A program made the position numbers and the translations under genes. From NCBI GenBank assembly GCA_037349105.1, contig JAYJMM010000034.1, positions 1,240,001 to 1,304,000 on the forward strand: a stretch of DNA of 64,000 nucleotides, written 5' to 3'. Shown here in pieces: positions 3,650 through 62,665 of the stretch. Under the pieces are notes generated by a model, which was given only the letters and a program-made list of their open reading frames with translations, was not told the origin of the DNA and did not search any database. The first letter of the stretch is position 1, and each line of letters starts with the position of its first letter. The stretch is from Limnomonas spitsbergensis. Its lineage: Eukaryota > Chlorophyta > Chlorophyceae > Chlamydomonadales.

Positions 3650-8126
<4,477 letters not shown>

Positions 8127-12700: not shown

Positions 12701-14570
12701 CATTCACAACATCAGATTGGCCACGCACAGGAACAGGACCATGCACCGGCCACGCACATAAACTGGCATTATGCACAGGGACAGGACCATGCAGTAGCCA
12801 CGCACATAAACTGGCTTTATGCACAGGGACAGGACCATGCAGTAGCCACGCACATAAACTGGCACTATGCACAGGGACAGGACCATGCAGTAGCCACGCA
12901 CATAAACTGGAACTATGCACAGGGACAGGACCATGCAGTAGCCACGCACATAAACTGGCACTATGCACAGGGACAGGACCATGCAGTAGCCACGCACATA
13001 AACTGGCACTTTGCACAGGGAAAGGACCATGCAGTAGCCACGCACATAAACTGGCAATATGCATAGGGGCAGGACCATGCACTGGCAACACGCAAAGGGG
13101 CTGGACCATGCACTGGTGACACGCAAAGGGACCGGGCCATGCACTGGAAGTAAACACAGTGAAACAACCAAGCACTGACAAAAGGCAAGGGCCTCACCCT
13201 CCTGCCGCCTGGATGGTGCCTCATCGCCCCATCGTCCTCGTCGCTGCTCCACAGGCTCAGCCACTGCCTCGTCGTCAGGGCCGGCTGCCCAGCGCCCAGC
13301 AGCCGCCGTTGGACCGTTGTTGTGGCAGGGGGCTGCTGCTTGGCCTCCTCGCCAGCTCTCCGCGGGCTTAGCAGTATCCCACCTCGTGCGTGACGTTGCT
13401 GTCTGGAGGGACCTCCCACTGTCAGCGAAGGAGCCACCCTGTACAGGGCAAAACTAGTTAAAAGACGAGGTGGGCCACGCAGAAACCCTAAACCCTGCAC
13501 AGGGCAAAACTAGTTCAAAGTCGAGGTGGGTCACGCAGAGACTGAACGTGCCCTTGTCAAACGGACCCAGCCTGAGTTGGCTCATGGCGCTTTGGAAATC
13601 AAGGTTCAGAATGGAAAGGCCACCCACCTCAGGCGGAGAGCCTGCTAGTCGCACTGGCTGCCGATCCCGGTCCTGTCGGTCTCTATCTACTCGGTCTTTG
13701 TCTTGGCGGTCCCGGTCCTGCCTGTCCCAGTCCTGTCGATCTCGGTCCTGTCGATCCCTGTCCTGGCCCCGCCAAGCACCCGCAGATGACCCTGGCGAGA
13801 GAGCCAAGCTGTTGCTACGCTGCATGCCCAGGGTGTGACACCGTAGAGGAGGATCATCCCTAGGGTTTGCATCATCCACGAGCCTCCTCGAGGGGATCTC
13901 AAGGGTGAATCCTGCGGAAAGATGGAGAGCATGGAGGTGTTATCATGTGACAAGATTTCCGTCACTGGCTGCGTGTGGGTCCCACCTGGGGGAGGTGCCT
14001 TGGGAGATAATGCAGGATCAGCTGCAGGGAGCTGCTGCTGCTGCCGGGCTCCTTGACCAAATTTTGAACCAGCCCAGCTGGGTTTTAGAAGTGGAAGGTC
14101 GTCCAGCATCGCCCGCCCCTCCTCGTTCCAGCTGGCTGCATTACGTTCGCCGTATGGAACCCGCTTATCCAGATCCCTGCGAACAAAATGATTGCCAGTG
14201 ACTGGATGCCGACGCGTCAGTTAACGGACGAAGATCTTCAATGTGGGCGTTCTCACCTCAATTCAACAGGGCTTAAATCCAATTCCTTAAGAATGGGAGT
14301 CAGGCCTTGATCCTTCCCTATGGCTAGCATCGCTAGCCTGCGTTCATTTGTTAAGAGTGAGTGCCGGGACATCGATAATGTGGATATTGATGCTCACCGG
14401 GTGTACTTGTGCTGCCTGTCATCCTTCCTCTCTATTATCCATGGTGCGTCATGGCATTCCAGGGCAGAAACAATCGCAGACCCAACCAGTTCGTGTATAA
14501 TATCGGAAATTGCATCATCAGTCATGCTAGAGCTACGCGTCACTTGATTGCGGATATCTACATTCTCCAT
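9748..14570 (-). CDS. Long glutamine-rich protein with an eIF4E-binding-like motif (4E-T-like, tentative)
   Basis: Eight minus-strand exons join in phase: 14570-14398, 14337-14257, 14176-13986, 13911-13628, 13438-13198, 12686-12520, 12260-12131 and 11741-9748, about 1086 aa. Joining exons 1 and 2 creates HKYTRLAMLAI, close to the YxxxxL-hydrophobic eIF4E-binding motif (human 4E-T has YTKEELL). Next come LTPILKELDLSPVELRDLDK, an RDRDRQ-repeat segment at 13.67-13.77 kb, EKRRGIYDHDELDLDAL, and then a 660-residue tail rich in Q, A and P. The tail holds MPIKALSLADLERQM and ends TSVSDLERLIMLRR, resembling the C-terminal motif of 4E-T. If correct, it would act in P-body or translational repression. 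The exon chain is better supported than the function. The first exon and the start (ATG at 14570; another possible at 14612) are the weakest parts. Confidence 0.6.
12719..13150. repeat. 48-bp minisatellite in an intron of the Q-rich gene
   Basis: The unit contains ccacgcacataaactggc, then tatgcacagggacaggacca and tgcagtag, period 48 bp. About seven good copies run from about 12750 to 13070, with degenerate copies at both edges. It lies in the intron between 13197 and 12687 of the minus-strand gene. The period is a multiple of three, giving spurious frames on both strands (for example repeats of ATHINWHYAQGQDHAV). Confidence 0.93.
13440..13545. repeat. Direct repeat duplicating a 3' splice-site region in an intron of the Q-rich gene
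   Basis: cagggcaaaactagtt followed by aaa(g)(a/t)cgaggtgggycacgcaga occurs twice, at about 13443 and 13499, period about 56 bp. On the minus strand both copies end in TTTTGCCCTGT(A/G)CAG. The copy nearest the exon is the acceptor used in my model (exon start 13438). Between them lies aaaccctaaaccctgc, two plant-type telomere-like units. Confidence 0.8.
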
Positions 14571-15349: not shown

Positions 15350-18300
15350 TCATCCATGCAGGAGAGCTACTGTCAGGTTGCTGCGCTTAGGCAGGCCCGG
15401 CCTGGCACCCAACTCGGTGCACTTGCATGCCGCCACCACGCTGCCAAGCTGCACAGAAGGAAGGGAGGAGGCAGGGAGGTAAGCGCCTTCAGGACGGCAA
15501 GATACTGCACAACCATCCCAATCAACAATTACGAGGATGAGGAGACTCCTGGGATTAAATAGCAGCAGCAGAAAATAACAGAGAAATCCTGAATGGGCAT
15601 CATCGCAATGCCCCAGCTAGGCTCAAGGACATTACCTGGTGCTTGGGCCCCATCCCACCATCAAAATGTATACCTGTGGTACAGTACTCTTCAAACTATG
15701 TACACAATGACGCATTGTCGACCTGGAGGAGCATGCCCATCAACAGCTTATGCTCCCGTCACTGTCACAATGTCAGGTTTGCCATCAAGTTGCAAGACCT
15801 TTGGTTACCCAGAGTGCACCCTAATCTCCCTCTTTTCCCTATCTTTTTTTAACACCCCTAGTTGACATAAACATAATCGAGGCCGTCTGCCCTTGTTACA
15901 CCACTAGCCCCACTCCAGCTTGCCCGCAAAACAGGGGTGGGGCACCCTGTGTTAGGCCCCCCGGCAGATGGAGTCTTCAACCGTCTCCAATCTGTCCCCC
16001 CACCCCTCAAAACAGCTGCTCCCCCAAAGTATGGATGAAGAAATCCATCCACACTAATAGAAGGCAGACCCAACGCAAGAGAACACGCACCTGCAGTATC
16101 TTGTCGTGCCTGAGGCCAGTCGCTAACCCATACAACACCGAGCCGATGAATGAGTCGCCGGCCCCTGTCGTGTCAACCACCGCTCCCTCTGGCAAAGCTG
16201 CAGCCGAGGCACGCAGCACCAGGGCCGATAGGGGGGGAAGCTGCTCCTGCTGGCTCTGACCGCTGTACTGCGCGGCCAGGCCGGGGTCAGCGTTCATCGC
16301 AGCTGCCCGTGCTCCGGCGGCCTGCGCCTGCACCAGCGCCTCCGCTGCATCATGGCCCTCGGACAGGAGCAGAGTGACGGGGCTCGGCAAGGAGGTCACT
16401 GGCCCCGACCTGACGTGCAAGCAGAGGGTTAAGATTGGAGTTCACTCGGATTGGAAAATCCACCATGGCGTATCATGTAACTGCCACCATACTAGTACTA
16501 GGTAAAGCATGGCAGGTAGCAGTGAATGCTTAATCTTCAATGTACGTTTTCGGAGGCTTTCCTAGAGCTCACCTGACAAGAACTCCAGTCCGGCTCACAC
16601 AGTCCTGCGACAGTTGTAGCATGAGAGTGTCAGTGTGCTTCCAAGGTTGGGGGCAAGGCAGGTTGCGATCCAGCTCTTATACATCTCACCCAACCTCGGA
16701 CAGTCTGACCTCTCTATGACCCTGAGTGCATCCTATTCCAGCCTACTCCCCAGCAGCATTTAACACCCTCCCAGCTCAGTCCCCATGTCCAGCCCCTTCC
16801 CTAACATACCCATACCCTTCACAGCTGCTTTCCTCTTCCCAAGTCCTCCGCACTGCCTGCGTCTAAGAGCCCCGACCTCATCCTCAGACTTCCTCACCTG
16901 CGTCTCCTCGTTCAAGCCGTGGCTAGATGCCAGTTGCCCCTCCAGTTCCGAGATGACGTCCTTGAGGCTCCTACTGGCCTGCTGGCCTGGTGCCTGCCCG
17001 TCACTGCGGCTCAGCATGACGCTCCCCCTCTTCCCGAGCGTCGTAATTACGAAACGCGCGCGTGGCAATCTCTGTGCCGTCACCAACATGGCGTCGGCCA
17101 GATCCTTCTCTCCAGTCCACTCCTGAGGCAGCAGCCAGCAGCAGTGCACAGCTCAATCAACCCCGACTCACAGCCTCACCACCACACCACCGGTGCTCAC
17201 TCACCCCCCAGGCAGCACCACTTGGGCCCCCCTCCCGCCCCACACAAAAACATTTCCTACGTGCGGGAAGTGTGCCGAGGTGACCACGTAGTCAGCCAGG
17301 GGTAAGAGTCCTTCCAGGCCGGGGCGCAACCGCTCCGCCTCCACCAAGACAGGAACGCCCGCCTCCCTGTGTGTTTTTGAATTTGAAACACTTAGCGGCG
17401 CTCGGGTTAGTTCAGTCTGATTCCGTTCGCCAGCACGCGTGCCTCCCCACTCATTGCAACTGGTAGAATATGGCTGACAAAGAATTTGGCCATTTGTGTA
17501 GACTGCAGCTGTGATTCACGTCACCCGATTCCATACAGGAATAAAGCCATGTCCCTAGGCACAGGACAAAAGCATATACGCCCATGCGCCCAGAAGTTGA
17601 TTAAGCCCCTCCCCATGCTCTGCACTCCCACCTCGGCCCCCCCCCCCTGGCTGTTACCTAGCCCGCGTTGCTAAGAGTATAGCCGCCTCGGTCAGGCGCC
17701 CATCGAAGTAGACGAGCGCGGCGTCTTTCAGAGCCGCGTCAATGAGGCCCGAGGACATGATCTCCTCAGGGGCAAGCGGCGCACCGGGGGTGTGGATGCA
17801 AGTGCGGGTGCCGCCTACACAGGAGCAAGACGGGGGGGGAAGGCATTCGGCTCAAGTCCCCTTCTGGAAACTTATGTCAAGGCCCTTTCTGTACCTCATC
17901 TGAAGCTTCTTTCTGAAAATAATCTGAAGGCCCTCTCTAGAACATGGTCGACCAACAGCCCCGCACCCTGGCCAGCAAGTCCTGCATGACCAAAACATCC
18001 GGCGTGAGGGCAAGCAAGAAATAAAAAAACGATCACAGACGTCACCATGGAGTAAATTGGAAACCCCAAAGCGAACACAGTGACCAGCTGAGAATTGAAG
18101 ACTGTAATTCCAGACCCCCTCCATGACTTCCTCTCTGTGCTGATACCCCCCTAACCCTTAACCCTAAAGTTTCCCTTTCTGTTCCACAAGTCACACCTGT
18201 CCTATCCACAATGATGTATGTGAAAGGGGAGGAGTGCCCCGCTTCTCTCAGGATCAGGCTGGTGTCCACGCCGTCGGCCTTGAGCTCACTGAGCAGCAGG

Positions 18301-21300
18301 AAGAACAGAACAAGCATGAAGTAAGGGCGCACTCAAGGTAGCCTCATAGCACACAACATTCATCCTAGGGTTGAGAGTTGACACCAAAGCATCCGGGTGT
18401 GTCGCAGGTAGGACGAAGCCCAACACTGATCTTTACAACGGCACCCCCAATGCATCCCTGGCAAACACTTCATATCATGCATGGTAGACTGATTGTGTTG
18501 TGGTCCGGATGCTCACTCAGGCACCTCAGGCACCTCTCACCTCATGATGCCATCCCCGAGTCCATCGCCGCCAATCTGAGAGCACAGCAGGGTGCAGAGG
18601 ACGGCCAGGGGATCAGGCCTATCATTTGAATATCTTGACAAAGCAGGCCCCTGCAAGGAAGAGGCTGTTGGCCTGTTAATGAAATAGGGCGATTCTGAGG
18701 CATAAATATACAATGCCAATGTCAATTTAGCCTGATGAAAAGTATTCCATTGGATGGCAGAGGCCTGACTCCCTCCATTGGACCTGTGTGGCTGCGTTGC
18801 CTGCAGTGTTAGCCAGTACTGGTGGTGCCAGCAGCACACAGGCCAGCCTGGATCTCTCTACTGGACCGGTGTAGCACTATGAGCAGCAGTATCTCACTTG
18901 ACTGGTGTTGCCAGAAGCACAAAAGCAAAGTCGGGATCTCTGTACTAGACCCATGTGGCACTATGAGCAGCAGTATCTCACTTGACTGGTGTTGCCAGAA
19001 GCAGAAAAGCAAAGTCGGGATCTCTGTACTGGACCCATGTGACACTATGAGCAGCAGTATCTCACTTGACTGGTGTTGCCAGAAGCAGAAAAGCAAAGTC
19101 GGGATCTCTGTACTGGACCCATGTGGCACTATGAGCAGCAGTATCTCACTTGACTGGTGTTGCCAGAAGCACAAAAGCAAAGTCGGGATCTCTGTACTGG
19201 ACCCATGTGGCACTATGAGCAGCAGTATCTCACTTGACTGGTGTTGCCAGAAGCACAAAAGCAAAGTCGGGATCTCTGTACTAGACCCATGTGGCACTAT
19301 GAGCAGCAGTATCTCACTTGACTGGTGTTGCCAGAAGCAGAAAAGCAAAGTCGGGATCTCTGTACTGGACCCATGTGACACTATGAGCAGCAGTATCTCA
19401 CTTGACTGGTGTTGCCAGAAGCAGAAAAGCAAAGTCGGGATCTCTGTACTGGACCCATGTGGCACTATGAGCAGCAGTATCTCACTTGACTGGTGTTGCC
19501 AGAAGCACAAAAGCAAAGTCGGGATCTCTGTACTGGACCCATGTGGCACTATGAGCAGCAGTATCTCACTTGACTGGTGTTGCCAGAAGCACAAAAGCAA
19601 AGTCGGGATCTCTGTACTAGACCCATGTGGCACTATGAGCAGCAGTATCTCACTTGACTGGTGTTGCCAGAAGCAGAAAAGCAAAGTCGGGATCTCTGTA
19701 CTGGACCCATGTGACACTATGAGCAGCAGTATCTCACTTGACTGGTGTTGCCAGAAGCACAAAAGCAAAGTCGGGATCTCTGTACTGGACCCATGTGGCA
19801 CTATGAGCAGCAGTATCTCACTTGACTGGTGTTGCCAGAAGCACAAAAGCAAAGTCGGGATCTCTGTACTGGACCCATGTGACACTATGAGCAGCAGTAT
19901 CTCACTTGACTGGTGTTGCCAGAAGCAGAAAAGCAAAGTCGGGATCTCTGTACTGGACCCATGTGACACTATGAGCAGCAGTATCTCACTTGACTGGTGT
20001 TGCCAGAAGCACAAAAGCAAAGTCGGGATCTCTGTACTGGACCCATGTGGCACTATGAGCAGCAGTATCTCACTTGACTGGTGTTGCCAGAAGCACAAAA
20101 GCAAAGTCGGGATCTCTGTACTGGACCCATGTGACACTATGAGCAGCAGTATCTCACTTGACTGGTGTTGCCAGAAGCACAAAAGCAAAGTCGGGATCTT
20201 TGTACTGGACCCATGTGGCACTATGAGCAGCAGTATCTCACTTGACTGGTGTTGCCAGAAGCACAAAAGCAAAGTCGGGATCTCTGTACTGGACCCATGT
20301 GACACTATGAGCAGCAGTATCTCACTTGACTGGTGTTGCCAGAAGCAGAAAAGCAAAGTCGGGATCTCTGTACTGGACCCATGTGGCACTATGAGCAGCA
20401 GTATCTCACTTGACTGGTGTTGCCAGAAGCAGAAAAGCAAAGTCGGGATCTCTGTACTGGACCCATGTGACACTATGAGCAGCAGTATCTCACTTGACTG
20501 GTGTTGCCAGAAGCAGAAAAGCAAAGTCGGGATCTTTGTACTGGACCCATGTGACACTATGAGCAGCAGTATCTCACTTGACTGGTGTTGCCAGAAGCAC
20601 AAAAGCAAAGTCGGGATCTCTGTACTGGACCCATGTGACACTATGAGCAGCAGTATCTCACTTGACTGGTGTTGCCAGAAGCAGAAAAGCAAAGTCGGGA
20701 TCTCTGTACTGGACCCATGTGACACTATGAGCAGCAGTATCTCACTTGACTGGTGTTGCCAGAAGCAGAAAAGCAAAGTCGGGATCTCTGTACTGGACCC
20801 ATGTGGCACTATGAGCAGCAGTATCTCACTTGACTGGTGTTGCCAGAAGCAGAAAAGCAAAGTCGGGATCTCTGTACTGGACCCATGTGACACTATGAGC
20901 AGCAGTATCTCACTTGACTGGTGTTGCCAGAAGCAGAAAAGCAAAGTCGGGATCTTTGTACTGGACCCATGTGGCACTATGAGCAGCAGTATCTCACTTG
21001 ACTGGTGTTGCCAGAAGCACAAAAGCAAAGTCGGGATCTTTGTACTGGACCCATGTGGCACAATGAGCAGCAGTATCTCACTTGACTGGTGTTGCCAGAA
21101 GCACAAAAGCAAAGTCGGGATCTCTGTACTGGACCCATGTGGCACTATGAGCAGCAGTATCTCACTTGACTGGTGTTGCCAGAAGCACAAAAGCAAAGTC
21201 GGGATCTCTGTACTGGACCCATGTGACACTATGAGCAGCAGTATCTCACTTGACTGGTGTTGCCAGAAGCAGAAAAGCAAAGTCGGGATCTCTGTACTGG

Positions 21301-24300
21301 ACCCATGTGACACTATGAGCAGCAGTATCTCACTTGACTGGTGTTGCCAGAAGCAGAAAAGCAAAGTCGGGATCTCTGTACTGGACCCATGTGGCACTAT
21401 GAGCAGCAGTATCTCACTTGACTGGTGTTGCCAGAAGCAGAAAAGCAAAGTCGGGATCTCTGTACTGGACCCATGTGACACTATGAGCAGCAGTATCTCA
21501 CTTGACTGGTGTTGCCAGAAGCAGAAAAGCAAAGTCGGGATCTCTGTACTGGACCCATGTGACACTATGAGCAGCAGTATCTCACTTGACTGGTGTTGCC
21601 GGAAGCAGAAAAGCAAAGTCGGGATCTCTGTACTGGACCCATGTGGCACTATGAGCAGCAGTATCTCACTTGACTGGTGTTGCCAGAAGCACAAAAGCAA
21701 AGTCGGGATCTCTGTACTGGACCCATGTGGCACTATGAGCAGCAGTATCTCACTTGACTGGTGTTGCCAGAAGCACAAAAGCAAAGTCGGGATCTCTGTA
21801 CTGGACCCATGTGACACTATGAGCAGCAGTATCTCACTTGACTGGTGTTGCCAGAAGCAGAAAAGCAAAGTCGGGATCTCTGTACTGGACCCATGTGACA
21901 CTATGAGCAGCAGTATCTCACTTGACTGGTGTTGCCAGAAGCACAAAAGCAAAGTCGGGATCTCTGTACTGGACCCATGTGGCACTATGAGCAGCAGTAT
22001 CTCACTTGACTGGTGTTGCCAGAAGCACAAAAGCAAAGTCGGGATCTCTGTACTGGACCCATGTGACACTATGAGCAGCAGTATCTCACTTGACTGGTGT
22101 TGCCAGAAGCACAAAAGCAAAGTCGGGATCTTTGTACTGGACCCATGTGGCACTATGAGCAGCAGTATCTCACTTGACTGGTGTTGCCAGAAGCAGAAAA
22201 GCAAAGTCGGGATCTTTGTACTGGACCCATGTGACACTATGAGCAGCAGTATCTCACTTGACTGGTGTTGCCAGAAGCAGAAAAGCAAAGTCGGGATCTC
22301 TGTACTGGACCCATGTGGCACTATGAGCAGCAGTATCTCACTTGACTGGTGTTGCCAGAAGCAGAAAAGCAAAGTCGGGATCTCTGTACTGGACCCATGT
22401 GACACTATGAGCAGCAGTATCTCACTTGACTGGTGTTGCCAGAAGCAGAAAAGCAAAGTCGGGATCTTTGTACTGGACCCATGTGACACTATGAGCAGCA
22501 GTATCTCACTTGACTGGTGTTGCCAGAAGCACAAAAGCAAAGTCGGGATCTCTGTACTGGACCCATGTGACACTATGAGCAGCAGTATCTCACTTGACTG
22601 GTGTTGCCAGAAGCAGAAAAGCAAAGTCGGGATCTCTGTACTGGACCCATGTGACACTATGAGCAGCAGTATCTCACTTGACTGGTGTTGCCAGAAGCAG
22701 AAAAGCAAAGTCGGGATCTCTGTACTGGACCCATGTGGCACTATGAGCAGCAGTATCTCACTTGACTGGTGTTGCCAGAAGCAGAAAAGCAAAGTCGGGA
22801 TCTCTGTACTGGACCCATGTGACACTATGAGCAGCAGTATCTCACTTGACTGGTGTTGCCAGAAGCAGAAAAGGAAAGTCGGGATCTTTGTACTGGACCC
22901 ATGTGGCACTATGAGCAGCAGTATCTCACTTGACTGGTGTTGCCAGAAGCACAAAAGCAAAGTCGGGATCTTTGTACTGGACCCATGTGGCACAATGAGC
23001 AGCAGTATCTCACTTGACTGGTGTTGCCAGAAGCACAAAAGCAAAGTCGGGATCTCTGTACTGGACCCATGTGACACTATGAGCAGCAGTAGCTCACTTG
23101 ACTGGTGTTGCCAGAAGCACAAAAGCAAAGTCGGGATCTCTGTACTGGACCCATGTGGCACTATGAGCAGCAGTATCTCACTTGACTGGTGTTGCCAGAA
23201 GCAGAAAAGCAAAGTCGGGATCTCTGTACTGGACCCATGTGGCACTATGAGCAGCAGTATCTCACTTGACTGGTGTTGCCAGAAGCACAAAAGCAAAGTC
23301 GGGATCTCTGTACTGGACCCATGTGGCACTATGAGCAGCAGTATCTCACTTGACTGGTGTTGCCAGAAGCAGAAAAGCAAAGTCGGGATCTCTGTACTGG
23401 ACCCATGTGACACTATGAGCAGCAGTATCTCACTTGACTGGTGTTGCCAGAAGCAGAAAAGCAAAGTCGGGATCTCTGTACTGGACCCATGTGACACTAT
23501 GAGCAGCAGTATCTCACTTGACTGGTGTTGCCAGAAGCAGAAAAGCAAAGTCGGGATCTCTGTCCTGGACCCATGTGGCACTATGAGCAGCAGTATCTCA
23601 CTTGACTGGTGTTGCCAGAAGCAGAAAAGCAAAGTCGGGATCTCTGTACTGGACCCATGTGACACTATGAGCAGCAATATCTCACTTGACTGGTGTTGCC
23701 AGAAGCACAAAAGCAAAGTCGGGATCTCTGTACTGGACCCATGTGACACTATGAGCAGCAGTATCTCACTTGACTGGTGTTGCCGGAAGCAGAAAAGCAA
23801 AGTCGGGATCTCTGTACTGGACCCATGTGACACTATGAGCAGCAGTATCTCACTTGACTGGTGTTGCCAGAAGCAGAAAAGCAAAGTCGGGATCTCTGTA
23901 CTGGACCCATGTGACACTATGAGCAGCAGTATCTCACTTGACTGGTGTTGCCAGAAGCACAAAAGCAAAGTCGGGATCTCTGTACTGGACCCATGTGACA
24001 CTATGAGCAGCAGTATCTCACTTGACTGGTGTTGCCAGAAGCAGAAAAGCAAAGTCGGGATCTTTGTACTGGACCCATGTGGCACTATGAGCAGCAGTAT
24101 CTCACTTGACTGGTGTTGCCAGAAGCAGAAAAGCAAAGTCGGGATCTTTGTACTGGACCCATGTGACACTATGAGCAGCAGTATCTCACTTGACTGGTGT
24201 TGCCAGAAGCAGAAAAGCAAAGTCGGGATCTTTGTACTGGACCCATGTGACACTATGAGCAGCAGTATCTCACTTGACTGGTGTTGCCAGAAGCACAAAA

Positions 24301-27300
24301 GCAAAGTCGGGATCTTTGTACTGGACCCATGTGGCACTATGAGCAGCAGTATCTCACTTGACTGGTGTTGCCAGAAGCACAAAAGCAAAGTCGGGATCTC
24401 TGTACTGGACCCATGTGGCACTATGAGCAGCAGTATCTCACTTGACTGGTGTTGCCAGAAGCAGAAAAGCAAAGTCGGGATCTCTGTACTGGACCCATGT
24501 GGCACTATGAGCAGCAGTATCTCACTTGACTGGTGTTGCCAGAAGCACAAAAGCAAAGTCGGGATCTCTGTACTGGACCCATGTGGCACTATGAGCAGCA
24601 GTATCTCACTTGACTGGTGTTGCCAGAAGCAGAAAAGCAAAGTCGGGATCTCTGTACTGGACCCATGTGGCACTATGAGCAGCAGTATCTCACTTGACTG
24701 GTGTAGCCAGAAGCACAAAAGCAAAGTCGGGATCTCTGTACTGGACCCATGTGGCACTATGAGCAGCAGTATCTCACTTGACTGGTGTTGCCAGAAGCAG
24801 AAAAGCAAAGTCGGGATCTCTGTCCTGGACCCATGTGGCACTATGAGCAGCAGTATCTCACTTGACTGGTGTTGCCAGAAGCACAAAAGAAAAGTCGGGA
24901 TCTCTGTACTGGACCCATGTGGCACAATGAGCAGCAGTATCTCACTTGACTGGTGTTGCCAGAAGCACAAAAGCAAAGTCGGGATCTCTGTACTGGACCC
25001 ATGTGACACTATGAGCAGCAGTAGCTCACTTGACTGGTGTTGCCAGGAGCACAAAAGCAAAGTCGGGATCTCTGTACTGGACCCATGTGGCACTATGAGC
25101 AGCAGTATCTCACTTGACTGGTGTTGCCAGAAGCAGAAAAGCAAAGTCGGGATCTCTGTACTGGACCCATGTGGCACTATGAGCAGCAGTATCTCACTTG
25201 ACTGGTGTTGCCAGAAGCACAAAAGCGAAGTCGGGATCTCTGTACTGGACCCATGTGACACTATGAGCAGCAGTATCTCGCTTGACTGGTGTTGCCAGAA
25301 GCACAAAAGCAAAGTCGGGATCTCTGTACTGGACCCATGTGACACTATGAGCAGCAGTATCTCACTTGACTGGTGTTGCCAGAAGCAGAAAAGCAAAGTC
25401 GGGATCTCTGTACTGGACCCATGTGACACTATGAGCAGCAGTATCTCACTTGACTGGTGTTGCCAGAAGCAGAAAAGCAAAGTCGGGATCTCTGTACTGG
25501 ACCCATGTGGCACTATGAGCAGCAGTATCTCACTTGACTGGTGTTGCCAGAAGCACAAAAGCAAAGTCGGGATCTTTGTACTGGACCCATGTGGCACTAT
25601 AAGCAGCAGTATCTCACTTGACTAGTGTTGCCAGAAGCACAAAAGCAAAGTCGGGATCTTTGTACTGGACCCATGTGACACTATGAGCAGCAGTATCTCA
25701 CTTGACTGGTGTTGCCAGAAGCACAAAAGCAAAGTCGGGATCTTTGTACTGGACCCATGTGGCACTATGAGCAGCAGTATCTCACTTGACTGGTGTTGCC
25801 AGAAGCAGAAAAGCAAAGTCGGGATCTCTGTACTGGACCCATGTGACACTATGAGCAGCAGTAGCTCACTTGACTGGTGTTGCCAGAAGCACAAAAGCAA
25901 AGTCGGGATCTCTGTACTGGACCCATGTGGCACTATGAGCAGCAGTATCTCACTTGACTGGTGTTGCCAGAAGCACAAAAGCAAAGTCGGGATCTCTGTA
26001 CTGGACCCATGTGGCACTATGAGCAGCAGTATCTCACTTGACTGGTGTTGCCAGAAGCACAAAAGCAAAGTCGGGATCTCTGTACTGGACCCATGTGACA
26101 CTATGAGCAGCAGTATCTCACTTGACTGGTGTTGCCAGAAGCAGAAAAGCAAAGTCGGGATCTCTGTACTGGACCCATGTGACACTATGAGCAGCAGTAT
26201 CTCACTTGACTGGTGTTGCCAGAAGCAGAAAAGCAAAGTCGGGATCTCTGTACTGGACCCATGTGGCACTATGAGCAGCAGTATCTCACTTGACTGGTGT
26301 TGCCAGAAGCAGAAAAGCAAAGTCGGGATCTCTGTACTGGACCCATGTGACACTATGAGCAGCAGTATCTCACTTGACTGGTGTTGCCAGAAGCACAAAA
26401 GCAAAGTCGGGATCTCTGTACTGGACCCATGTGACACTATGAGCAGCAGTATCTCACTTGACTGGTGTTGCCGGAAGCAGAAAAGCAAAGTCGGGATCTC
26501 TGTACTGGACCCATGTGGCACTATGAGCAGCAGTATCTCACTTGACTGGTGTTGCCAGAAGCACAAAAGCAAAGTCGGGATCTCTGTACTGGACCCATGT
26601 GGCACTATGAGCAGCAGTATCTCACTTGACTGGTGTTGCCAGAAGCACAAAAGCAAAGTCGGGATCTCTGTACTGGACCCATGTGACACTATGAGCAGCA
26701 GTATCTCACTTGACTGGTGTTGCCAGAAGCAGAAAAGCAAAGTCGGGATCTCTGTACTGGACCCATGTGACACTATGAGCAGCAGTATCTCACTTGACTG
26801 GTGTTGCCAGAAGCACAAAAGCAAAGTCGGGATCTCTGTACTGGACCCATGTGGCACTATGAGCAGCAGTATCTCACTTGACTGGTGTTGCCAGAAGCAC
26901 AAAAGCAAAGTCGGGATCTCTGTACTGGACCCATGTGACACTATGAGCAGCAGTATCTCACTTGACTGGTGTTGCCAGAAGCACAAAAGCAAAGTCGGGA
27001 TCTTTGTACTGGACCCATGTGGCACTATGAGCAGCAGTATCTCACTTGACTGGTGTTGCCAGAAGCAGAAAAGCAAAGTCGGGATCTTTGTACTGGACCC
27101 ATGTGACACTATGAGCAGCAGTATCTCACTTGACTGGTGTTGCCAGAAGCAGAAAAGCAAAGTCGGGATCTCTGTACTGGACCCATGTGGCACTATGAGC
27201 AGCAGTATCTCACTTGACTGGTGTTGCCAGAAGCAGAAAAGCAAAGTCGGGATCTCTGTACTGGACCCATGTGACACTATGAGCAGCAGTATCTCACTTG

Positions 27301-30300
27301 ACTGGTGTTGCCAGAAGCAGAAAAGCAAAGTCGGGATCTTTGTACTGGACCCATGTGGCACTATGAGCAGCAGTATCTCACTTGACTGGTGTTGCCAGAA
27401 GCACAAAAGCAAAGTCGGGATCTCTGTACTGGACCCATGTGGCACAATGAGCAGCAGTATCTCACTTGACTGGTGTTGCCAGAAGCACAAAAGCAAAGTC
27501 GGGATCTCTGTACTGGACCCATGTGACACTATGAGCAGCAGTAGCTCACTTGACTGGTGTTGCCAGAAGCACAAAAGCAAAGTCGGGATCTCTGTACTGG
27601 ACCCATGTGGCACTATGAGCAGCAGTATCTCACTTGACTGGTGTTGCCAGAAGCAGAAAAGCAAAGTCGGGATCTCTGTACTGGACCCATGTGGCACTAT
27701 GAGCAGCAGTATCTCACTTGACTGGTGTTGCCAGAAGCACAAAAGCAAAGTCGGGATCTCTGTACTGGACCCATGTGGCACTATGAGCAGCAGTATCTCA
27801 CTTGACTGGTGTTGCCAGAAGCAGAAAAGCAAAGTCGGGATCTCTGTACTGGACCCATGTGACACTATGAGCAGCAGTATCTCACTTGACTGGTGTTGCC
27901 AGAAGCAGAAAAGCAAAGTCGGGATCTCTGTACTGGACCCATGTGACACTATGAGCAGCAGTATCTCACTTGACTGGTGTTGCCAGAAGCAGAAAAGCAA
28001 AGTCGGGATCTCTGTCCTGGACCCATGTGGCACTATGAGCAGCAGTATCTCACTTGACTGGTGTTGCCAGAAGCAGAAAAGCAAAGTCGGGATCTCTGTA
28101 CTGGACCCATGTGACACTATGAGCAGCAATATCTCACTTGACTGGTGTTGCCAGAAGCACAAAAGCAAAGTCGGGATCTCTGTACTGGACCCATGTGACA
28201 CTATGAGCAGCAGTATCTCACTTGACTGGTGTTGCCGGAAGCAGAAAAGCAAAGTCGGGATCTCTGTACTGGACCCATGTGACACTATGAGCAGCAGTAT
28301 CTCACTTGACTGGTGTTGCCAGAAGCAGAAAAGCAAAGTCGGGATCTCTGTACTGGACCCATGTGGCACTATGAGCAGCAGTATCTCACTTGACTGGTGT
28401 TGCCAGAAGCACAAAAGCAAAGTCGGGATCTCTGTACTGGACCCATGTGACACTATGAGCAGCAGTATCTCACTTGACTGGTGTTGCCAGAAGCAGAAAA
28501 GCAAAGTCGGGATCTTTGTACTGGACCCATGTGGCACTATGAGCAGCAGTATCTCACTTGACTGGTGTTGCCAGAAGCAGAAAAGCAAAGTCGGGATCTT
28601 TGTACTGGACCCATGTGACACTATGAGCAGCAGTATCTCACTTGACTGGTGTTGCCAGAAGCAGAAAAGCAAAGTCGGGATCTTTGTACTGGACCCATGT
28701 GACACTATGAGCAGCAGTATCTCACTTGACTGGTGTTGCCAGAAGCACAAAAGCAAAGTCGGGATCTTTGTACTGGACCCATGTGGCACTATGAGCAGCA
28801 GTATCTCACTTGACTGGTGTTGCCAGAAGCACAAAAGCAAAGTCGGGATCTCTGTACTGGACCCATGTGGCACTATGAGCAGCAGTATCTCACTTGACTG
28901 GTGTTGCCAGAAGCAGAAAAGCAAAGTCGGGATCTCTGTACTGGACCCATGTGACACTATGAGCAGCAATATCTCACTTGACTGGTGTTGCCAGAAGCAC
29001 AAAAGCAAAGTCGGGATCTCTGTACTGGACCCATGTGACACTATGAGCAGCAGTATCTCACTTGACTGGTGTTGCCAGGAAGCAGAAAAGCAAAGTCGGG
29101 ATCTCTGTACTGGACCCATGTGACACTATGAGCAGCAGTATCTCACTTGACTGGTGTTGCCAGAAGCAGAAAAGCAAAGTCGGGATCTCTGTACTGGACC
29201 CATGTGGCACTATGAGCAGCAGTATCTCACTTGACTGGTGTTGCCAGAAGCACAAAAGCAAAGTCGGGATCTCTGTACTGGACCCATGTGACACTATGAG
29301 CAGCAGTATCTCACTTGACTGGTGTTGCCAGAAGCAGAAAAGCAAAGTCGGGATCTTTGTACTGGACCCATGTGGCACTATGAGCAGCAGTATCTCACTT
29401 GACTGGTGTTGCCAGAAGCAGAAAAGCAAAGTCGGGATCTTTGTACTGGACCCATGTGGCACTATGAGCAGCAGTATCTCACTTGACTGGTGTTGCCAGA
29501 AGCACAAAAGCAAAGTCGGGATCTCTGTACTGGACCCATGTGGCACTATGAGCAGCAGTATCTCACTTGACTGGTGTTGCCAGAAGCAGAAAAGCAAAGT
29601 CGGGATCTCTGTACTGGACCCATGTGGCACTATGAGCAGCAGTATCTCACTTGACTGGTGTTGCCAGAAGCACAAAAGCAAAGTCGGGATCTCTGTACTG
29701 GACCCATGTGGCACTATGAGCAGCAGTATCTCACTTGACTGGTGTTGCCAGAAGCACAAAAGCAAAGTCGGGATCTCTGTACTGGACCCATGTGGCACTA
29801 TGAGCAGCAGTATCTCACTTGACTGGTGTTGCCAGAAGCACAAAAGCAAAGTCGGGATCTCTGTACTGGACCCATGTGGCACTATGAGCAGCAGTATCTC
29901 ACTTGACTGGTGTTGCCAGAAGCAGAAAAGCAAAGTCGGGATCTCTGTACTGGACCCATGTGGCACTATGAGCAGCAGTATCTCACTTGACTGGTGTAGC
30001 CAGAAGCACAAAAGCAAAGTCGGGATCTCTGTACTGGACCCATGTGGCACTATGAGCAGCAGTATCTCACTTGACTGGTGTTGCCAGAAGCAGAAAAGCA
30101 AAGTCGGGATCTCTGTACTGGACCCATGTGGCACTATGAGCAGCAGTATCTCACTTGACTGGTGTTGCCAGAAGCACAAAAGCAAAGTCGGGATCTCTGT
30201 ACTGGACCCATGTGGCACAATGAGCAGCAGTATCTCACTTGACTGGTGTTGCCAGAAGCACAAAAGCAAAGTCGGGATCTCTGTACTGGACCCATGTGAC

Positions 30301-33300
30301 ACTATGAGCAGCAGTAGCTCACTTGACTGGTGTTGCCAGGAGCACAAAAGCAAAGTCGGGATCTCTGTACTGGACCCATGTGGCACTATGAGCAGCAGTA
30401 TCTCACTTGACTGGTGTTGCCAGAAGCAGAAAAGCAAAGTCGGGATCTCTGTACTGGACCCATGTGGCACTATGAGCAGCAGTATCTCACTTGACTGGTG
30501 TTGCCAGAAGCACAAAAGCAAAGTCGGGATCTTTGTACTGGACCCATGTGGCACTATAAGCAGCAGTATCTCACTTGACTAGTGTTGCCAGAAGCACAAA
30601 AGCAAAGTCGGGATCTTTGTACTGGACCCATGTGACACTATGAGCAGCAGTATCTCACTTGACTGGTGTTGCCAGAAGCACAAAAGCAAAGTCGGGATCT
30701 TTGTACTGGACCCATGTGGCACTATGAGCAGCAGTATCTCACTTGACTGGTGTTGCCAGAAGCAGAAAAGCAAAGTCGGGATCTCTGTACTGGACCCATG
30801 TGACACTATGAGCAGCAGTATCTCACTTGACTGGTGTTGCCAGAAGCAGAAAAGCAAAGTCGGGATCTCTGTACTGGACCCATGTGGCACTATGAGCAGC
30901 AGTATCTCACTTGACTGGTGTTGCCAGAAGCAGAAAAGCAAAGTCGGGATCTCTGTACTGGACCCATGTGGCACTATGAGCAGCAGTATCTCACTTGACT
31001 GGTGTTGCCAGAAGCACAAAAGCAAAGTCGGGATCTCTGTACTGGACCCATGTGGCACAATGAGCAGCAGTATCTCACTTGACTGGTGTTGCCAGAAGCA
31101 CAAAAGCAAAGTCGGGATCTCTGTACTGGACCCATGTGACACTATGAGCAGCAGTAGCTCACTTGACTGGTGTTGCCAGAAGCACAAAAGCAAAGTCGGG
31201 ATCTCTGTACTGGACCCATGTGACACTATGAGCAGCAGTATCTCACTTGACTGGTGTTGCCAGAAGCAGAAAAGCAAAGTCGGGATCTCTGTACTGGACC
31301 CATGTGGCACAATGAGCAGCAGTATCTCACTTGGCTGGTGTTGCCAGAAGCACAAAAGCAAAGTCGGGATCTCTGTACTGGACCCATGTGACACTATGAG
31401 CAGCAGTATCTCACTTGACTGGTGTTGCCAGAAGCACAAAAGCAAAGTCGGGATCTCTGTACTGGACCCATGTGGCACTATGAGCAGCAGTATCTCACTT
31501 GACTGGTGTTGCCAGAAGCAGAAAAGCAAAGTCGGGATCTTTGTACTGGACCCATGTGGCACTATGAGCAGCAGTATCTCACTTGACTGGTGTTGCCAGA
31601 AGCACAAAAGCAAAGTCGGGATCTTTGTACTGGACCCATGTGACACTATGAGCAGCAGTATCTCACTTGACTGGTGTTGCCAGAAGCAGAAAAGCAAAGT
31701 CGGGATCTTTGTACTGGACCCATGTGACACTATGAGCAGCAGTATCTCACTTGACTGGTGTTGCCAGAAGCACAAAAGCAAAGTCGGGATCTTTGTACTG
31801 GACCCATGTGGCACTATGAGCAGCAGTATCTCACTTGACTGGTGTTGCCAGAAGCACAAAAGCAAAGTCGGGATCTCTGTACTGGACCCATGTGGCACTA
31901 TGAGCAGCAGTATCTCACTTGACTGGTGTTGCCAGAAGCACAAAATCAAAGTCGGGATCTCTGTACTGGACCCATGCGGCACTATGAGCAGCAGTATCTC
32001 ACTTGACTGGTGTTGCCAGAAGCAGAAAAGCAAAGTCGGGATCTCTGTACTGGACCCATGTGGCACTATGAGCAGCAGTATCTCACTTGACTGGTGTTGC
32101 CAGAAGCACAAAAGCAAAGTCGGGATCTCTGTACTGGACCCATGTGGCACTATGAGCAGCAGTATCTCACTTGACTGGTGTTGCCAGAAGCAGAAAAGCA
32201 AAGTCGGGATCTCTGTACTGGACCCATGTGGCACTATGAGCAGCAGTATCTCACTTGACTGGTGTTGCCAGAAGCAGAAAAGCAAAGTCGGGATCTCTGT
32301 ACTGGACCCATGTGGCACTATGAGCAGCAGTATCTCACTTGACTGGTGTTGCCAGAAGCAGAAAAGCAAAGTCGGGATCTCTGTACTGGACCCATGTGGC
32401 ACTATGAGCAGCAGTATCTCACTTGACTGGTGTTGCCAGAAGCACAAAAGCAAAGTCGGGATCTCTGTACTGGACCCATGTGGCACAATGAGCAGCAGTA
32501 TCTCACTTGACTGGTGTTGCCAGAAGCACAAAAGCAAAGTCGGGATCTCTGTACTGGACCCATGTGACACTATGAGCAGCAGTAGCTCACTTGACTGGTG
32601 TTGCCAGAAGCACAAAAGCAAAGTCGGGATCTCTGTACTGGACCCATGTGGCAATATGAGCAGCAGTATCTCACTTGACTGGTGTTGCCAGAAGCACAAA
32701 AGCAAAGTCGGGATCTCTGTACTGGACCCATGTGGCACTATGAGCAGCAGTATCTCACTTGACTGGTGTTGCCAGAAGCACAAAAGCAAAGTCGGGATCT
32801 CTGTACTGGACCCATGTGACACTATGAGCAGCAGTATCTCGCTTGACTGGTGTTGCCAGAAGCACAAAAGCAAAGTCGGGATCTCTGTACTGGACCCATG
32901 TGACACTATGAGCAGCAGTATCTCACTTGACTGGTGTTGCCAGAAGCACAAAAGCAAAGTCGGGATCTCTGTACTGGACCCATGTGGCACTATGAGCAGC
33001 AGTATCTCACTTGACTGGTGTTGCCAGAAGCACAAAAGCAAAGTCGGGATCTCTGTACTGGACCCATGTGACACTATGAGCAGCAGTAGCTCACTTGACT
33101 GGTGTTGCCAGAAGCACAAAAGCAAAGTCGGGATCTCTGTACTGGACCCATGTGGCAATATGAGCAGCAGTATCTCACTTGACTGGTGTTGCCAGAAGCA
33201 GAAAAGCAAAGTCGGGATCTCTGTACTGGACCCATGTGACACTATGAGCAGCAGTATCTCACTTGACTGGTGTTGCCAGAAGCACAAAAGCAAAGTCGGG

Positions 33301-36300
33301 ATCTCTGTACTGGACCCATGTGGCACTATGAGCAGCAGTATCTCACTTGACTGGTGTTGCCAGAAGCACAAAAGCAAAGTCGGGATCTTTGTACTGGACC
33401 CATGTGGCACTATGAGCAGCAGTATCTCACTTGACTAGTGTTGCCAGAAGCACAAAAGCAAAGTCGGGATCTTTGTACTGGACCCATGTGACACTATGAG
33501 CAGCAGTATCTCGCTTGACTGGTGTTGCCAGAAGCACAAAAGCAAAGTCGGGATCTCTGTACTGGACCCATGTGACACTATGAGCAGCAGTATCTCACTT
33601 GACTGGTGTTGCCAGAAGCAGAAAAGCAAAGTCGGGATCTCTGTACTGGACCCATGTGACACTATGAGCAGCAGTATCTCACTTGACTGGTGTTGCCAGA
33701 AGCACAAAAGCAAAGTCGGGATCTCTGTACTGGACCCATGTGGCACTATGAGCAGCAGTATCTCACTTGACTGGTGTTGCCAGAAGCAGAAAAGCAAAGT
33801 CGGGATCTTTGTACTGGACCCATGTGGCACTATGAGCAGCAGTATCTCACTTGACTAGTGTTGCCAGAAGCACAAAAGCAAAGTCGGGATCTTTGTACTG
33901 GACCCATGTGACACTATGAGCAGCAGTATCTCACTTGACTGGTGTTGCCAGAAGCACAAAAGCAAAGTCGGGATCTTTGTACTGGACCCATGTGACACTA
34001 TGAGCAGCAGTATCTCGCTTGACTGGTGTTGCCAGAAGCACAAAAGCAAAGTCGGGATCTCTGTACTGGACCCATGTGACACTATGAGCAGCAGTATCTC
34101 ACTTGACTGGTGTTGCCAGAAGCAGAAAAGCAAAGTCGGGATCTTTGTACTGGACCCATGTGACACTATGAGCAGCAGTATCTCACTTGACTGGTGTTGC
34201 CAGAAGCAGAAAAGCAAAGTCGGGATCTCTGTACTGGACCCATGTGGCACTATGAGCAGCAGTATCTCACTTGACTGGTGTTGCCAGAAGCACAAAAGCA
34301 AAGTCGGGATCTTTGTACTGGACCCATGTGGCACTATGAGCAGCAGTATCTCACTTGACTAGTGTTGCCAGAAGCACAAAAGCAAAGTCGGGATCTCTGT
34401 ACTGGACCCATGTGACACTATGAGCAGCAGTATCTCACTTGACTGGTGTTGCCAGAAGCACAAAAGCAAAGTCGGGATCTTTGTACTGGACCCATGTGGC
34501 ACTGTGAGCAGCAGTATCTCACTTGACTGGTGTTGCCAGAAGCAGAAAAGCAAAGTCGGGATCTCTGTACTGGACCCATGTGACACTATGAGCAGCAGTA
34601 TCTCACTTGACTGGTGTTGCCAGAAGCAGAAAAGCAAAGTCGGGATCTCTGTACTGGACCCATGTGGCACAATGAGCAGCAGTATCTCACTTGACTGGTG
34701 TTGCCAGAAGCAGAAAAGCAAAGTCGGGATCTCTGTACTGGACCCATGTGACACTATGAGCAGCAGTATCTCACTTGACTGGTGTTGCCAGAAGCACAAA
34801 AGCAAAGTCGGGATCTCTGTACTGGACCCATGTGACACTATGAGCAGCAGTATCTCACTTGACTGGTGTTGCCAGAAGCAGAAAAGCAAAGTCGGGATCT
34901 TTGTACTGGACCCATGTGGCACTATGAGCAGCAGTATCTCACTTGACTGGTGTTGCCAGAAGCACAAAAGCAAAGTCGGGATCTCTGTACTGGACCCATG
35001 TGGCACTATGAGCAGCAGTATCTCACTTGACTGGTGTTGCCAGAAGCACAAAAGCAAAGTCGGGATCTCTGTACTGGACCCATGTGACACTATGAGCAGC
35101 AGTATCTCACTTGACTGGTGTTGCCAGAAGCAGAAAAGCAAAGTCGGGATCTTTGTACTGGACCCATGTGGCACTATGAGCAGCAGTATCTCACTTGACT
35201 GGTGTTGCCAGAAGCACAAAAGCAAAGTCGGGATCTTTGTACTGGACCCATGTGGCACTATGAGCAGCAGTATCTCACTTGACTGGTGTTGCCAGAAGCA
35301 CAAAAGCAAAGTCGGGATCTCTGTACTGGACCCATGTGACACTATGAGCAGCAGTATCTCACTTGACTGGTGTTGCCAGAAGCAGAAAAGCAAAGTCGGG
35401 ATCTCTGTACTGGACCCATGTGGCACTATGAGCAGCAGTATCTCACTTGACTGGTGTTGCCAGAAGCAGAAAAGCAAAGTCGGGATCTTTGTACTGGACC
35501 CATGTGGCACTATGAGCAGCAGTATCTCACTTGACTGGTGTTGCCAGAAGCACAAAAGCAAAGTCGGGATCTTTGTACTGGACCCATGTGGCACTATGAG
35601 CAGCAGTATCTCACTTGACTGGTGTTGCCAGAAGCACAAAAGCAAAGTCGGGATCTCTGTACTGGACCCATGTGACACTATGAGCAGCAGTATCTCACTT
35701 GACTGGTGTTGCCAGAAGCACAAAAGCAAAGTCGGGATCTCTGTACTGGACCCATGTGACACTATGAGCAGCAGTATCTCACTTGACTGGTGTTGCCAGA
35801 AGCACATACACACTCTTATGTGACGGCAAGCTGTAGGGGGGGGCAGCATGCCTCCCAAGATCCACGCTTCCATAAATGTCACCACATGACAGAGCAACCT
35901 AGTCCTCCTTGCTCAACATGTGGCCGCGTCTGACACACCTTGGTCACGATGGTTGGGGATAGGCCTAGACGAGCGGCAGCAGTGAGAGCATTCCCAGCAT
36001 TGCCTCCTCCCTGGACCTGCAGATCGTGACGGGGTGGGAGGTGAGAGGTCGCCGGGGAGGGCCTGGTGAGGAAAGGGCAGGGAGGAAGGCCGATAGGCAT
36101 CAGAACATAAGTAGTAATCCGCTGTGCCAATTTCATGGGCATGGATGCATGAGATAGTGTAAGGTCCTCATAGGTTGCAGCTGCCACAGTGGGTGACATG
36201 GTGGGTAATAGCCCTGAGGAAGTCAGGGATGATTGTTGTGACCAGCTTTTAGCATGTAAGTAGAGATGAAGGGGATTTTGCTGGAACTTGATAAGCCATG

Positions 36301-37263
36301 ATTTGAAGGGAAAAAACGGCTTGTATCCAGTGTTTACTTTAGCACACTTCAGCTACACTTCAGCCACATCATGGACTTCAGCCAGGAGCGCAAGGTGCCC
36401 TGCTGCTCGGGCCACTGGTCCTGGGCCCGTCAAGGTTTGGTCCCAGTGGGCCCAGCCAATGTTGGCGACCCTGCGACCCCAAAGGTTATGTGGCACGCAC
36501 CAAAATATTGCTAGCATCATGAGACTGTTGAGGTACCTGCGTGAATCTCCGTTTGTTTCTACTTGTTTGTTTGAACGGCACTGAAGCTAACGAGCATTGG
36601 GGCGGATGATAAGAACATGCGCCACTTGAAATAAAGACTCAGGACCAGCTCATGCACAGCACCCGTGGTCATGCATCATGTCCGTTATGTTTGTGTTTGT
36701 TGTGAGGGCGTGTGTCAGAGTGCAACATAAGCATTCCAAATGCTGCCAGCAATTCGTCTGTCAGAACGTTCTTAGCTGTTTGGCCCTACCTACCTCGAGC
36801 ATCTCCGTCCGAAGCTTCTGATCTGGCTGTGGGTAGGCAGCCACTGAAGCTAGGTAATCGACGCCACAGCTGCCCATGCCCACCACCTTGATAGGCTTCG
36901 GCAGATCCACGTCGCATGGCTGTCAGCAATCACATGGATAGTCAACGAAGTCAGTCTCACGGCCATTTGTGCATGCATGCTGGATGGCGTTGATTCAGGC
37001 AAGCTTATCCCCTCCCAGCCCTCAGTTGCAGTGAACAGCTGCAGTGTGCATGGTCAGTCATGGATGTGCACAGCAAATTCATTGGGAACGATGATCTTGA
37101 AATGTGAGCATCAATGAGCTAGATCTACCTTGAATTGCGCGGCCGATGATGCCGACACATGCACTCGCCGGAAAGGCCCGGCTGACCGCAGAGCCCGGCA
37201 TGATGCAGTGGCACGTGAAGCCCCAGCGACAGCTCTACATTGAAGGGAATGTTTTTGAAGCAT
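15350..37263 (-). CDS. pfkB-family carbohydrate (ribokinase-like) kinase with transit-like leader and a 17.4-kb intron
   Basis: Eleven minus-strand exons join in phase: 37263-37129, 36919-36794, 36016-35939, 18575-18541, 18288-18197, 17814-17658, 17366-17261, 17122-16898, 16604-16573, 16409-16091 and 15448-15350, giving 467 aa. The first 45 residues are rich in S, A and R and look like an organellar transit peptide. Family motifs are KVVGMGSCGVDYLASVAAYP, VQGGGNAGNALTAAARLGL (pfkB signature 1 region), SELKADGVDTSLI, FTYIIVDRTGGTRTCIHTPG, ALVYFDGRLTEAAILL, VLVEAERLRPGLEGL, FVITTLGKRGSVML, DTTGAGDSFIG (signature 2 with the catalytic Asp) and ELGARPGLPKRSN near the C-terminus. This matches a plant pfkB group of undefined sugar specificity (I believe the AT5G43910 type). 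Exon 9 may extend to 16673 in frame, adding 23 residues. Intron 3 (35938-18576) holds the 84-bp array; the exons on either side are both phase 0 and family similarity continues across. Confidence 0.9.
18147..18176. repeat. Telomere-like CCCTAA cluster in a pfkB intron
   Basis: The text ccctaacccttaaccctaaa lies in the intron between the exons ending at 18197 and starting at 17814. It resembles two to three degenerate CCCTAA/CCCTAAA units. It is too short to call a real interstitial telomere. Confidence 0.4.
18576..35938 (-). other. 17,363-bp third intron of the pfkB gene
   Basis: The donor is at 35938-35937 (ACCAAG|GTGTGT on the minus strand) and the acceptor ends at 18576 (GTGCTCTCAG|ATTGGC). 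Both flanking exons are phase 0. They encode GLSPTIVTK before and IGGDGLGDGIMSELKADG after, which are adjacent in family members. About 98% of this intron is the 84-bp array; the rest is about 130 bp on the donor side and 240 bp on the acceptor side. Other introns of the gene are 107 to 777 bp. Confidence 0.88.
18816..35806. repeat. 84-bp satellite-like array, about 202 units
   Basis: Units are 84 bp; a representative unit is 18877-18960, beginning ctatgagcagcagtatctca. The copies are extremely homogeneous. Three sites carry most of the variation: cac/cag after agaag, tct/ttt after gggat, and ggc/gac after catgt. Rare variants include agctcac, cgcttg, tgccgg, gtgtagcc, tgtcctgg, gcagcaat and tataagc. 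One extra G near 29079 shifts the phase of everything to the right. The leftmost unit (about 18816-18880) is strongly diverged, and the right end stops abruptly in agcacaTACACAC. There are no unique spacers, so this is not a CRISPR array. Confidence 0.98.
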
Positions 37264-61036: not shown

Positions 61037-62665
61037 ATGAGGAGAAAAAACGGCCTGCAATGGCCTCTGGAATCACACCAGGTGCACTATTGCGAACAGT
61101 CGGTGACAGGGATCCTCATCCTGTTCCTTGCTGACCTCCTGTGCGTGCTTGCGCTGCAGGTTTTGTCCTTTGTCGTTTTTGGATTCCTTGTGGCTGGTGC
61201 CTATGCGTTTCTGATGCCCTTTGTTGAGAATGCTGGCGCCAGAATAGCACTTGCAACAATTTACGCCGTTCTTGTAAGCGTCGTCTTCCTGCTGGCTTAC
61301 CTGACCAGGTATGAGAAAACGTTCAGCTACTAATTGCAGCTGATAGTCACTCCATAACCACGCGAGTTCCTCTCTGCTGCAGTGCCTCTGATCCCTCCGA
61401 CCCAGGTTTGCAAGGCGGCAACAAGGGCGAGTACTATTGCGCTCTGTGCACGGTAAGAACCGCGCAAGTTGCGGGTAGCCTTAAACGGCCTTGCAGTCGT
61501 CATATGACTCGCGACTCATAGTGACAGGCACATGATGAGGGCATTTTCTGCACCATTCCAGTCACAAGCCTTGCAATGCATTGACTGTTGCTGTGCTCAC
61601 GTACTGTAATACATGTGTGCTCCGCAGGCTAGCGTGGGGCGCAGTAGCAAACATTGCCGAGCATGCGATCGCTGTGTGGAAGGCTTTGACCATCACTGCA
61701 AGTGGCTAAACAACTGTGTTGGTGACAAGAACTACCAGACCTTCTTCTGCCTGGTGCTACTCACATGCACCATGCTGCTGGTGCAGTTTGGCTGGGCGCT
61801 TTACCTGCTGTGCCGCAGCTTCTATGATGAGCAAACGATGCAAGGCCTAGTGAGCTCAAACTACACGGTCCGAGTCAACTACCGTGGCTGGCAGGTTGTG
61901 TTGGCCATGTACTTGTTGCTGCTAGCCGCGGCAATCCTCATGCTAGGAGAGCTGCTGTCATTCCACATCGTGCTGGTTACCAAGAACATGACGACGTATG
62001 ATTACATCATGGCACAAAGCGCAAGAGGAGATGAGGGCCCGATCAGCAGTGGTAGCTCCTCGGGTGCGCGTGCTGCCCTGTGCCGCTCTGGGCGCGTTGT
62101 GGATGAATCGTTGGCGATCGTGAGACCTCAACGGAAGTCGAAGGTCAGCCTGAACATATGCAAGGCCATGATGGCAGAAAAGCCCAAGGGAGACCCTCGC
62201 TCATGGGAGAAGATCGGTTCATCTGCGGTGGCCGCCAAGACTGGCAATCTGGCCTTACCCGTCATCGGTAATGCTGCCGTGGTCGAGAGCGAGTTTCCGC
62301 ACACTACGCAGCAACATCAGAAGCAAGCGCCCCTGCAGCACATATGCCCCGACGTCACGATGTGCCCTATGACACAAGCCCCAATGCCGGGCACTCTGTC
62401 GGACTATCCTGAGCTCGCTGGGTGCACATCTCCGCCGTCGGGCGTGAGGGCTATGTCGTCTTTAGAGTCGCCCAAGGTGACGGGGGCACTGGAGTTGCAA
62501 TTACCTGGTGGCACTCCAGAGACACCAGTCTATCAGGGCCGGCCTTTCCCGTCCAAATCGTCCACACCATCCGCGGAAGCCAATGAGCCGCCATCCTCGG
62601 TGAAGGCCTTACCAACTCTCCCGCCAATGCGCCAGCCACGAGCTGGCGGGCCCCCAAACAACTGA
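61037..62665 (+). CDS. DHHC-type protein S-palmitoyltransferase (plant PAT type)
   Basis: The preferred exons are 61037-61081, 61160-61308, 61383-61452 and 61628-62665 (TGA), giving 433 aa. The 78-bp segment 61082-61159 has GT and AG ends, no stop and a length divisible by three, so retention would give 459 aa. The N-terminus [15 protein letters not shown] followed directly by [17 protein letters not shown] matches plant PATs and favours splicing. Two membrane segments precede the cysteine-rich domain ([20 protein letters not shown], then [17 protein letters not shown] with the DHHC active site). Two more follow ([20 protein letters not shown] and [20 protein letters not shown]), then NMTTYDYIM, the TTxE-like motif. 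The cytosolic tail of about 220 residues is low complexity. It transfers palmitate to cysteines at endomembranes or plasma membrane. Confidence 0.93.

Follow-up and report, generated by a model that had tools for sequence, protein, structure and literature searches.

An 84-bp minisatellite array fills a 17.4-kb intron of a predicted PfkB-type kinase gene in the green alga Limnomonas spitsbergensis

The kinase gene and its third intron

A 64,000-nucleotide stretch of the Limnomonas spitsbergensis genome (contig JAYJMM010000034.1, positions 1,240,001 to 1,304,000; hereafter the window) carries on its minus strand a gene for a PfkB-type kinase, the third intron of which is occupied almost entirely by a tandem array of an 84-bp unit. 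The gene is modelled from position 37263 down to 15350 as 11 exons, which join into an open frame for a 467-residue protein that ends in a stop codon. All introns of the model have GT-AG ends, and there are no frameshifts or early stops, so that the gene is apparently intact. Residues 1-435 match the Pfam PfkB profile (E 3.5e-35; 122.2 bits, the Pfam cut-off being 25.8), and by this match the host gene is a member of the PfkB carbohydrate kinase family and its product a predicted enzyme. Identity to the ten best homologues is 48-64%; seven of these are named as green algal and one as a land plant (Mucuna), while two have no legible organism. When one exon was compared with phage records, no match was found. 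The parts of the gene are as follows.

37129..37263, minus strand: exon 1, an N-terminal extension, perhaps a transit peptide; the start codon was picked by reading frame
36794..36919, minus strand: exon 2
35939..36016, minus strand: exon 3, 78 bp, with VTK at its end, followed by the giant intron
18576..35938, minus strand: intron 3, 17,363 bp, GTGTGT...CTCAG, phase 0
18818..35806, minus strand: 84-bp minisatellite array within intron 3
18756..18875, minus strand: decayed unit copies along the acceptor-side margin of the array, placed by local alignment to the consensus; partly within the array bounds given above, limits approximate
18541..18575, minus strand: exon 4, 35 bp, encoding IGGDGLGDGIM plus two bases
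18197..18288, minus strand: exon 5, which carries SELKADG
17658..17814, minus strand: exon 6
17261..17366, minus strand: exon 7
16898..17122, minus strand: exon 8
16573..16604, minus strand: exon 9, 32 bp
16091..16409, minus strand: exon 10, with the DTTGAGDS motif
15350..15448, minus strand: exon 11, with the stop codon

The introns measure, in order, 209, 777, 17,363, 252, 382, 291, 138, 293, 163 and 642 bp, and the nine other than intron 3 thus span 138-777 bp. The array, for which Tandem Repeats Finder (TRF) gives 202.2 copies with 97% matches and 0% indels, makes up 97.8% of intron 3. These values agree with the original prediction, which had described an array of about 202 copies taking up about 98% of a single 17.4-kb intron, with exons in matching phase, an intact gene on both sides and no other intron above 0.8 kb.

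Across the junction of exons 3 and 4, no gap occurs within 6 residues in any of the 120 homologues listed (the best 120 of 1,060). The claim that the motifs on either side of the intron are neighbours in homologues therefore stands, but SELKADG had been assigned to the exon starting at 18575 and lies instead in exon 5, beyond the 252-bp intron. The ends of intron 3, the frame kept across it and the continuity of the homologues are all those of a spliceosomal GT-AG intron, and its removal is predicted.

Composition and growth of the array

The array is highly regular. Among the 201 intervals between successive units, 200 measure exactly 84 bp and one measures 85 bp. The units fall into 34 distinct sequences, and three positions within them are strongly two-state. 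On the donor side the array opens with an intact part-unit; on the acceptor side lie the decayed copies listed above.

A 32-base core of the unit, allowing up to three mismatches, has 202 matches in the window, as against none in 100 dinucleotide shuffles. By the same criterion the whole assembly (124 contigs, 260,226,709 bases) also has 202 matches, and the counts for an exact 26-base core are 173 in the 260-Mb assembly and 173 in the window. Such counts are blind to strongly decayed relatives, the decayed copies at the edge of the array being themselves absent from the matches. Within the sensitivity of the core search, the 84-bp unit looks private to the kinase locus. The acceptor-side flank of the intron (18620-18830) matched only itself when it was compared with the genome, in a search that skips very common words.

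A unit that is private to one locus speaks against a satellite of the dispersed or centromere type. Within the sensitivity of these searches, a centromeric or dispersed heterochromatic satellite was rejected on this ground, and the likeness to such satellites that had been drawn from the length and homogeneity of the array is not borne out. A transposon or introner copy was likewise rejected, since no related copies were found elsewhere for the unit core or, in the search that skips very common words, for the acceptor-side flank.

The order of the units bears traces of how the array grew. Its longest internal exact repeat is 961 bp, whereas 50 shuffles of unit order gave a mean of 395 bp and a maximum of 500 bp. 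Identity between units reaches 0.21, 0.19 and 0.19 at lags of 23, 53 and 76, as compared with 0.096 expected by chance. The lag pattern and the 961-bp repeat fit duplication of blocks as well as of single units.

Two roles for the array itself were considered and rejected. Long open frames are present on both strands of the array because the period is divisible by three; in the two stop-free frames, silent and changing differences stand at 20:262 and 22:260 (counted per unit and not per event), which speaks against a protein-coding array. A structured RNA is similarly disfavoured: the RNA of two units has a z score of +1.60, and 195 of 200 shuffles fold at least as well. No mention of this array was found in the literature searched, which is no proof that none exists.

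The paralogue, the assembly and the state of the gene

A paralogue of the kinase gene lies on another contig (C102), where six stretches match at 62-72% identity. There, too, exon 3 measures 78 bp, and after it comes a 1,283-bp intron with the same position and phase as intron 3 of the kinase gene, which is about 13 times as long. The tandem repeat in the counterpart intron is another one (62 bp x 4.5; L012:6306-6581). In a blastn comparison the two introns had only 13-bp matches, at E 0.79, in common. Most simply, the intron would be older than the duplication and the array would have arisen later, in one copy; it is possible that the array was lost from the C102 copy instead. A second tandem repeat, 98 bp x 2.8, lies between kinase exons of the paralogue (L012:5416-5694).

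Long homogeneous arrays are difficult for assemblers, so that two loci might have been misjoined through the repeat, or the length of the array might be unreal. The 19-mer estimate published for L. spitsbergensis, 233 Mb, is also smaller than the 260-Mb assembly. An artefact of this kind is nevertheless improbable. The flanking exons form one in-phase gene whose junction is gapless in the homologues listed, the paralogue has an intron at the identical place, and the PacBio reads described for the published genome (L50 32.9 kb, maximum 127 kb, 63x) are long enough to cover 17.4 kb. The join between exons 3 and 4 is very likely right, while the exact copy number of the array is less certain.

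The existence of a paralogue also bears on whether the gene still works. The array might break it: transcription or splicing would fail, leaving a recent pseudogene or a pair of truncated RNAs, and the work would fall to the C102 paralogue. The paralogue could make such a loss tolerable, and intron 3 is about 22-fold longer than the mean published for introns of this species (788 bp). Eleven open exons with GT-AG introns, and the lack of any frameshift or early stop, weigh against an old loss, though not against a recent one. We consider a broken gene unlikely.

Tandem arrays elsewhere in the window and the genome

The kinase gene has a neighbour with similar introns. This gene encodes a UDP-sugar epimerase, its ten best homologues being 62-66% identical to the query of joined exons. 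The pieces at 3911-4168 and 6915-7259 match the Pfam Epimerase profile, and that at 5182-5391 has no Pfam match. Two of its introns are rich in arrays.

5306..6939, plus strand: epimerase intron, 1,634 bp, 81% of which is a 27-bp x 49 array (5506-6831)
4623..5231, plus strand: epimerase intron, 609 bp, 67% of which is a 6-bp x 68 array (4759-5167)

The epimerase exons join in frame across both introns. The alignment is gap-free within five residues of the first junction in 119 of the 120 homologues listed, and at the second in 89 of them.

To gauge the wider genome, fourteen 10-kb stretches outside the window (L015-L028) were sampled at fixed, not random, places; eight other chosen places fell past the ends of contigs. 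Tandem repeats with a period of at least 10 cover 49,973 of the 140,000 bases; this share (36%) refers to all such repeats, intronic or not, those of L016, L019 and L025 included. Individual stretches vary between 2.4% and 99.8%, and arrays of at least 500 bp with a period of at least 10 are present in nine of the fourteen. As for coding content, two pieces of L019 match the Pfam family Mito_carr. The pieces of L016 gave one TPR-like match below the cut-off, one at chance level (E 0.12) and one without any match, and neither piece of L025 had a Pfam match.

The kinase array is large, yet its kind is common in this genome, and tandem arrays may account for about one third of the genomic DNA. 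The original prediction had regarded a satellite inside an apparently active gene as unusual; given the epimerase introns and the sampled stretches, this is not supported here, although the size of 17.4 kb may still be an outlier. In the published repeat table for L. spitsbergensis, whose genome was described together with RNA-seq and IsoSeq data, satellites account for 0.10% and unclassified repeats for 22.78%. TRF was run for that work and its share is not given in the parts consulted; therefore, the sampled 36% does not contradict the table.

Several further observations concern repeats and genes in this genome. L015:1-10000 (contig C3) is nearly all tandem repeat, with TRF periods of 23, 46, 251, 502 and 844, and L022:1240-6208 (contig C16) is a 5-kb array of 48 bp x 102. 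Within the window, at 12725-13147, arrays of 48 bp x 7.4 and 31 bp x 3.2 overlap and have part of their units in common, as if one period were derived from the other. An open frame on the plus strand at 61610-62665 carries a motif that we take to be of the DHHC type. On contigs C24 (C24:1157258-1168847) and C19 (C19:2090280-2098210), sequences that match the start and those that match the end of the PfkB profile are separated by about 11.6 kb and 7.9 kb, respectively; provided that both members of a pair come from a single gene, this would hint at further long genes.

Probable origin and fate of the array

The explanation that we favour, with a probability of roughly 0.83, is a local amplification in a pre-existing intron, which is transcribed, spliced out and has no function of its own. 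An ordinary spliceosomal intron would have predated the duplication that produced the C102 paralogue. One 84-bp stretch within it would then have been amplified in place into about 202 head-to-tail copies, growth proceeding by duplication of single units and of multi-unit blocks, for example through unequal exchange or replication slippage. We infer that transcription runs through the array and that splicing of exon 3 to exon 4 removes the entire 17.4 kb. The array would be tolerated because only the length of the intron changes.

Several observations weigh against this explanation. The length of intron 3 relative to the published mean is one. The surroundings are another: five of the fourteen sampled stretches have no array of at least 500 bp with a period of at least 10, and in the two stretches that adjoin the window tandem repeats make up only 3.2% and 9.1%. 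Finally, every unit holds a donor-like GTGAG and an acceptor-like CAG site, and such sites could disturb splicing.

The same sites lend themselves to another explanation. In each unit, the acceptor-like CAG is followed four bases on by the donor-like GTGAG, and the intron might be removed stepwise as a ladder of repeated 80-base introns. If so, the spliceosome would clear the 17 kb by a long series of short removals, and growth of the array would be harmless, since each added unit would itself be removable. The consensus shows this layout, as do 2.8% of 5,000 circular dinucleotide shuffles; the figure is weak because the layout was defined after looking. A recursive splice site has the form CAG|GT, from which the layout of the unit differs. 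Moreover, the outer decayed copy has CACCAGTACTGGC in place of the unit's CACCAGTCAAGTGAG and lacks the donor, and no AG occurs in the 27-bp unit found in the epimerase intron. Stepwise splicing is thus very unlikely, and removal of intron 3 as a single piece is preferred.

Relation to known systems and significance

Intronic minisatellites, or variable number tandem repeats, typically consist of head-to-tail copies of one local unit, with variant units and repeated blocks. The kinase array shares these traits, and its copies are head-to-tail and homogeneous, as those of a minisatellite are. It differs in its size and in the density of arrays in the genome around it.

The Drosophila genes kl-3 and kl-5 have gigantic introns filled with satellite DNA (PMC6508621). 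In both cases, according to the parts of that work consulted, a protein-coding gene has intron sequence that is mostly satellite; transcription was shown in Drosophila and is predicted here. The Drosophila introns are of megabase size and belong to a dedicated expression programme, whereas the kinase gene has a single 17-kb intron, with a unit found at one locus. In Chlamydomonas reinhardtii and Volvox carteri, two other green algae, tandem repeats reach their highest density in introns, and the introns of about 23% of annotated mRNAs contain them (PMC3887541). However, the top intronic motif there is a dinucleotide, and the sections of that study consulted describe no 202-copy, 17-kb array.

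The kinase gene offers a clear case of an intron stretched by local amplification of a repeat while the exons remain intact. It makes two questions testable. The first is how much lengthening of its introns a single-celled alga can bear before splicing is impaired. The second is whether minisatellites, rather than transposons, set the length of introns in this alga.
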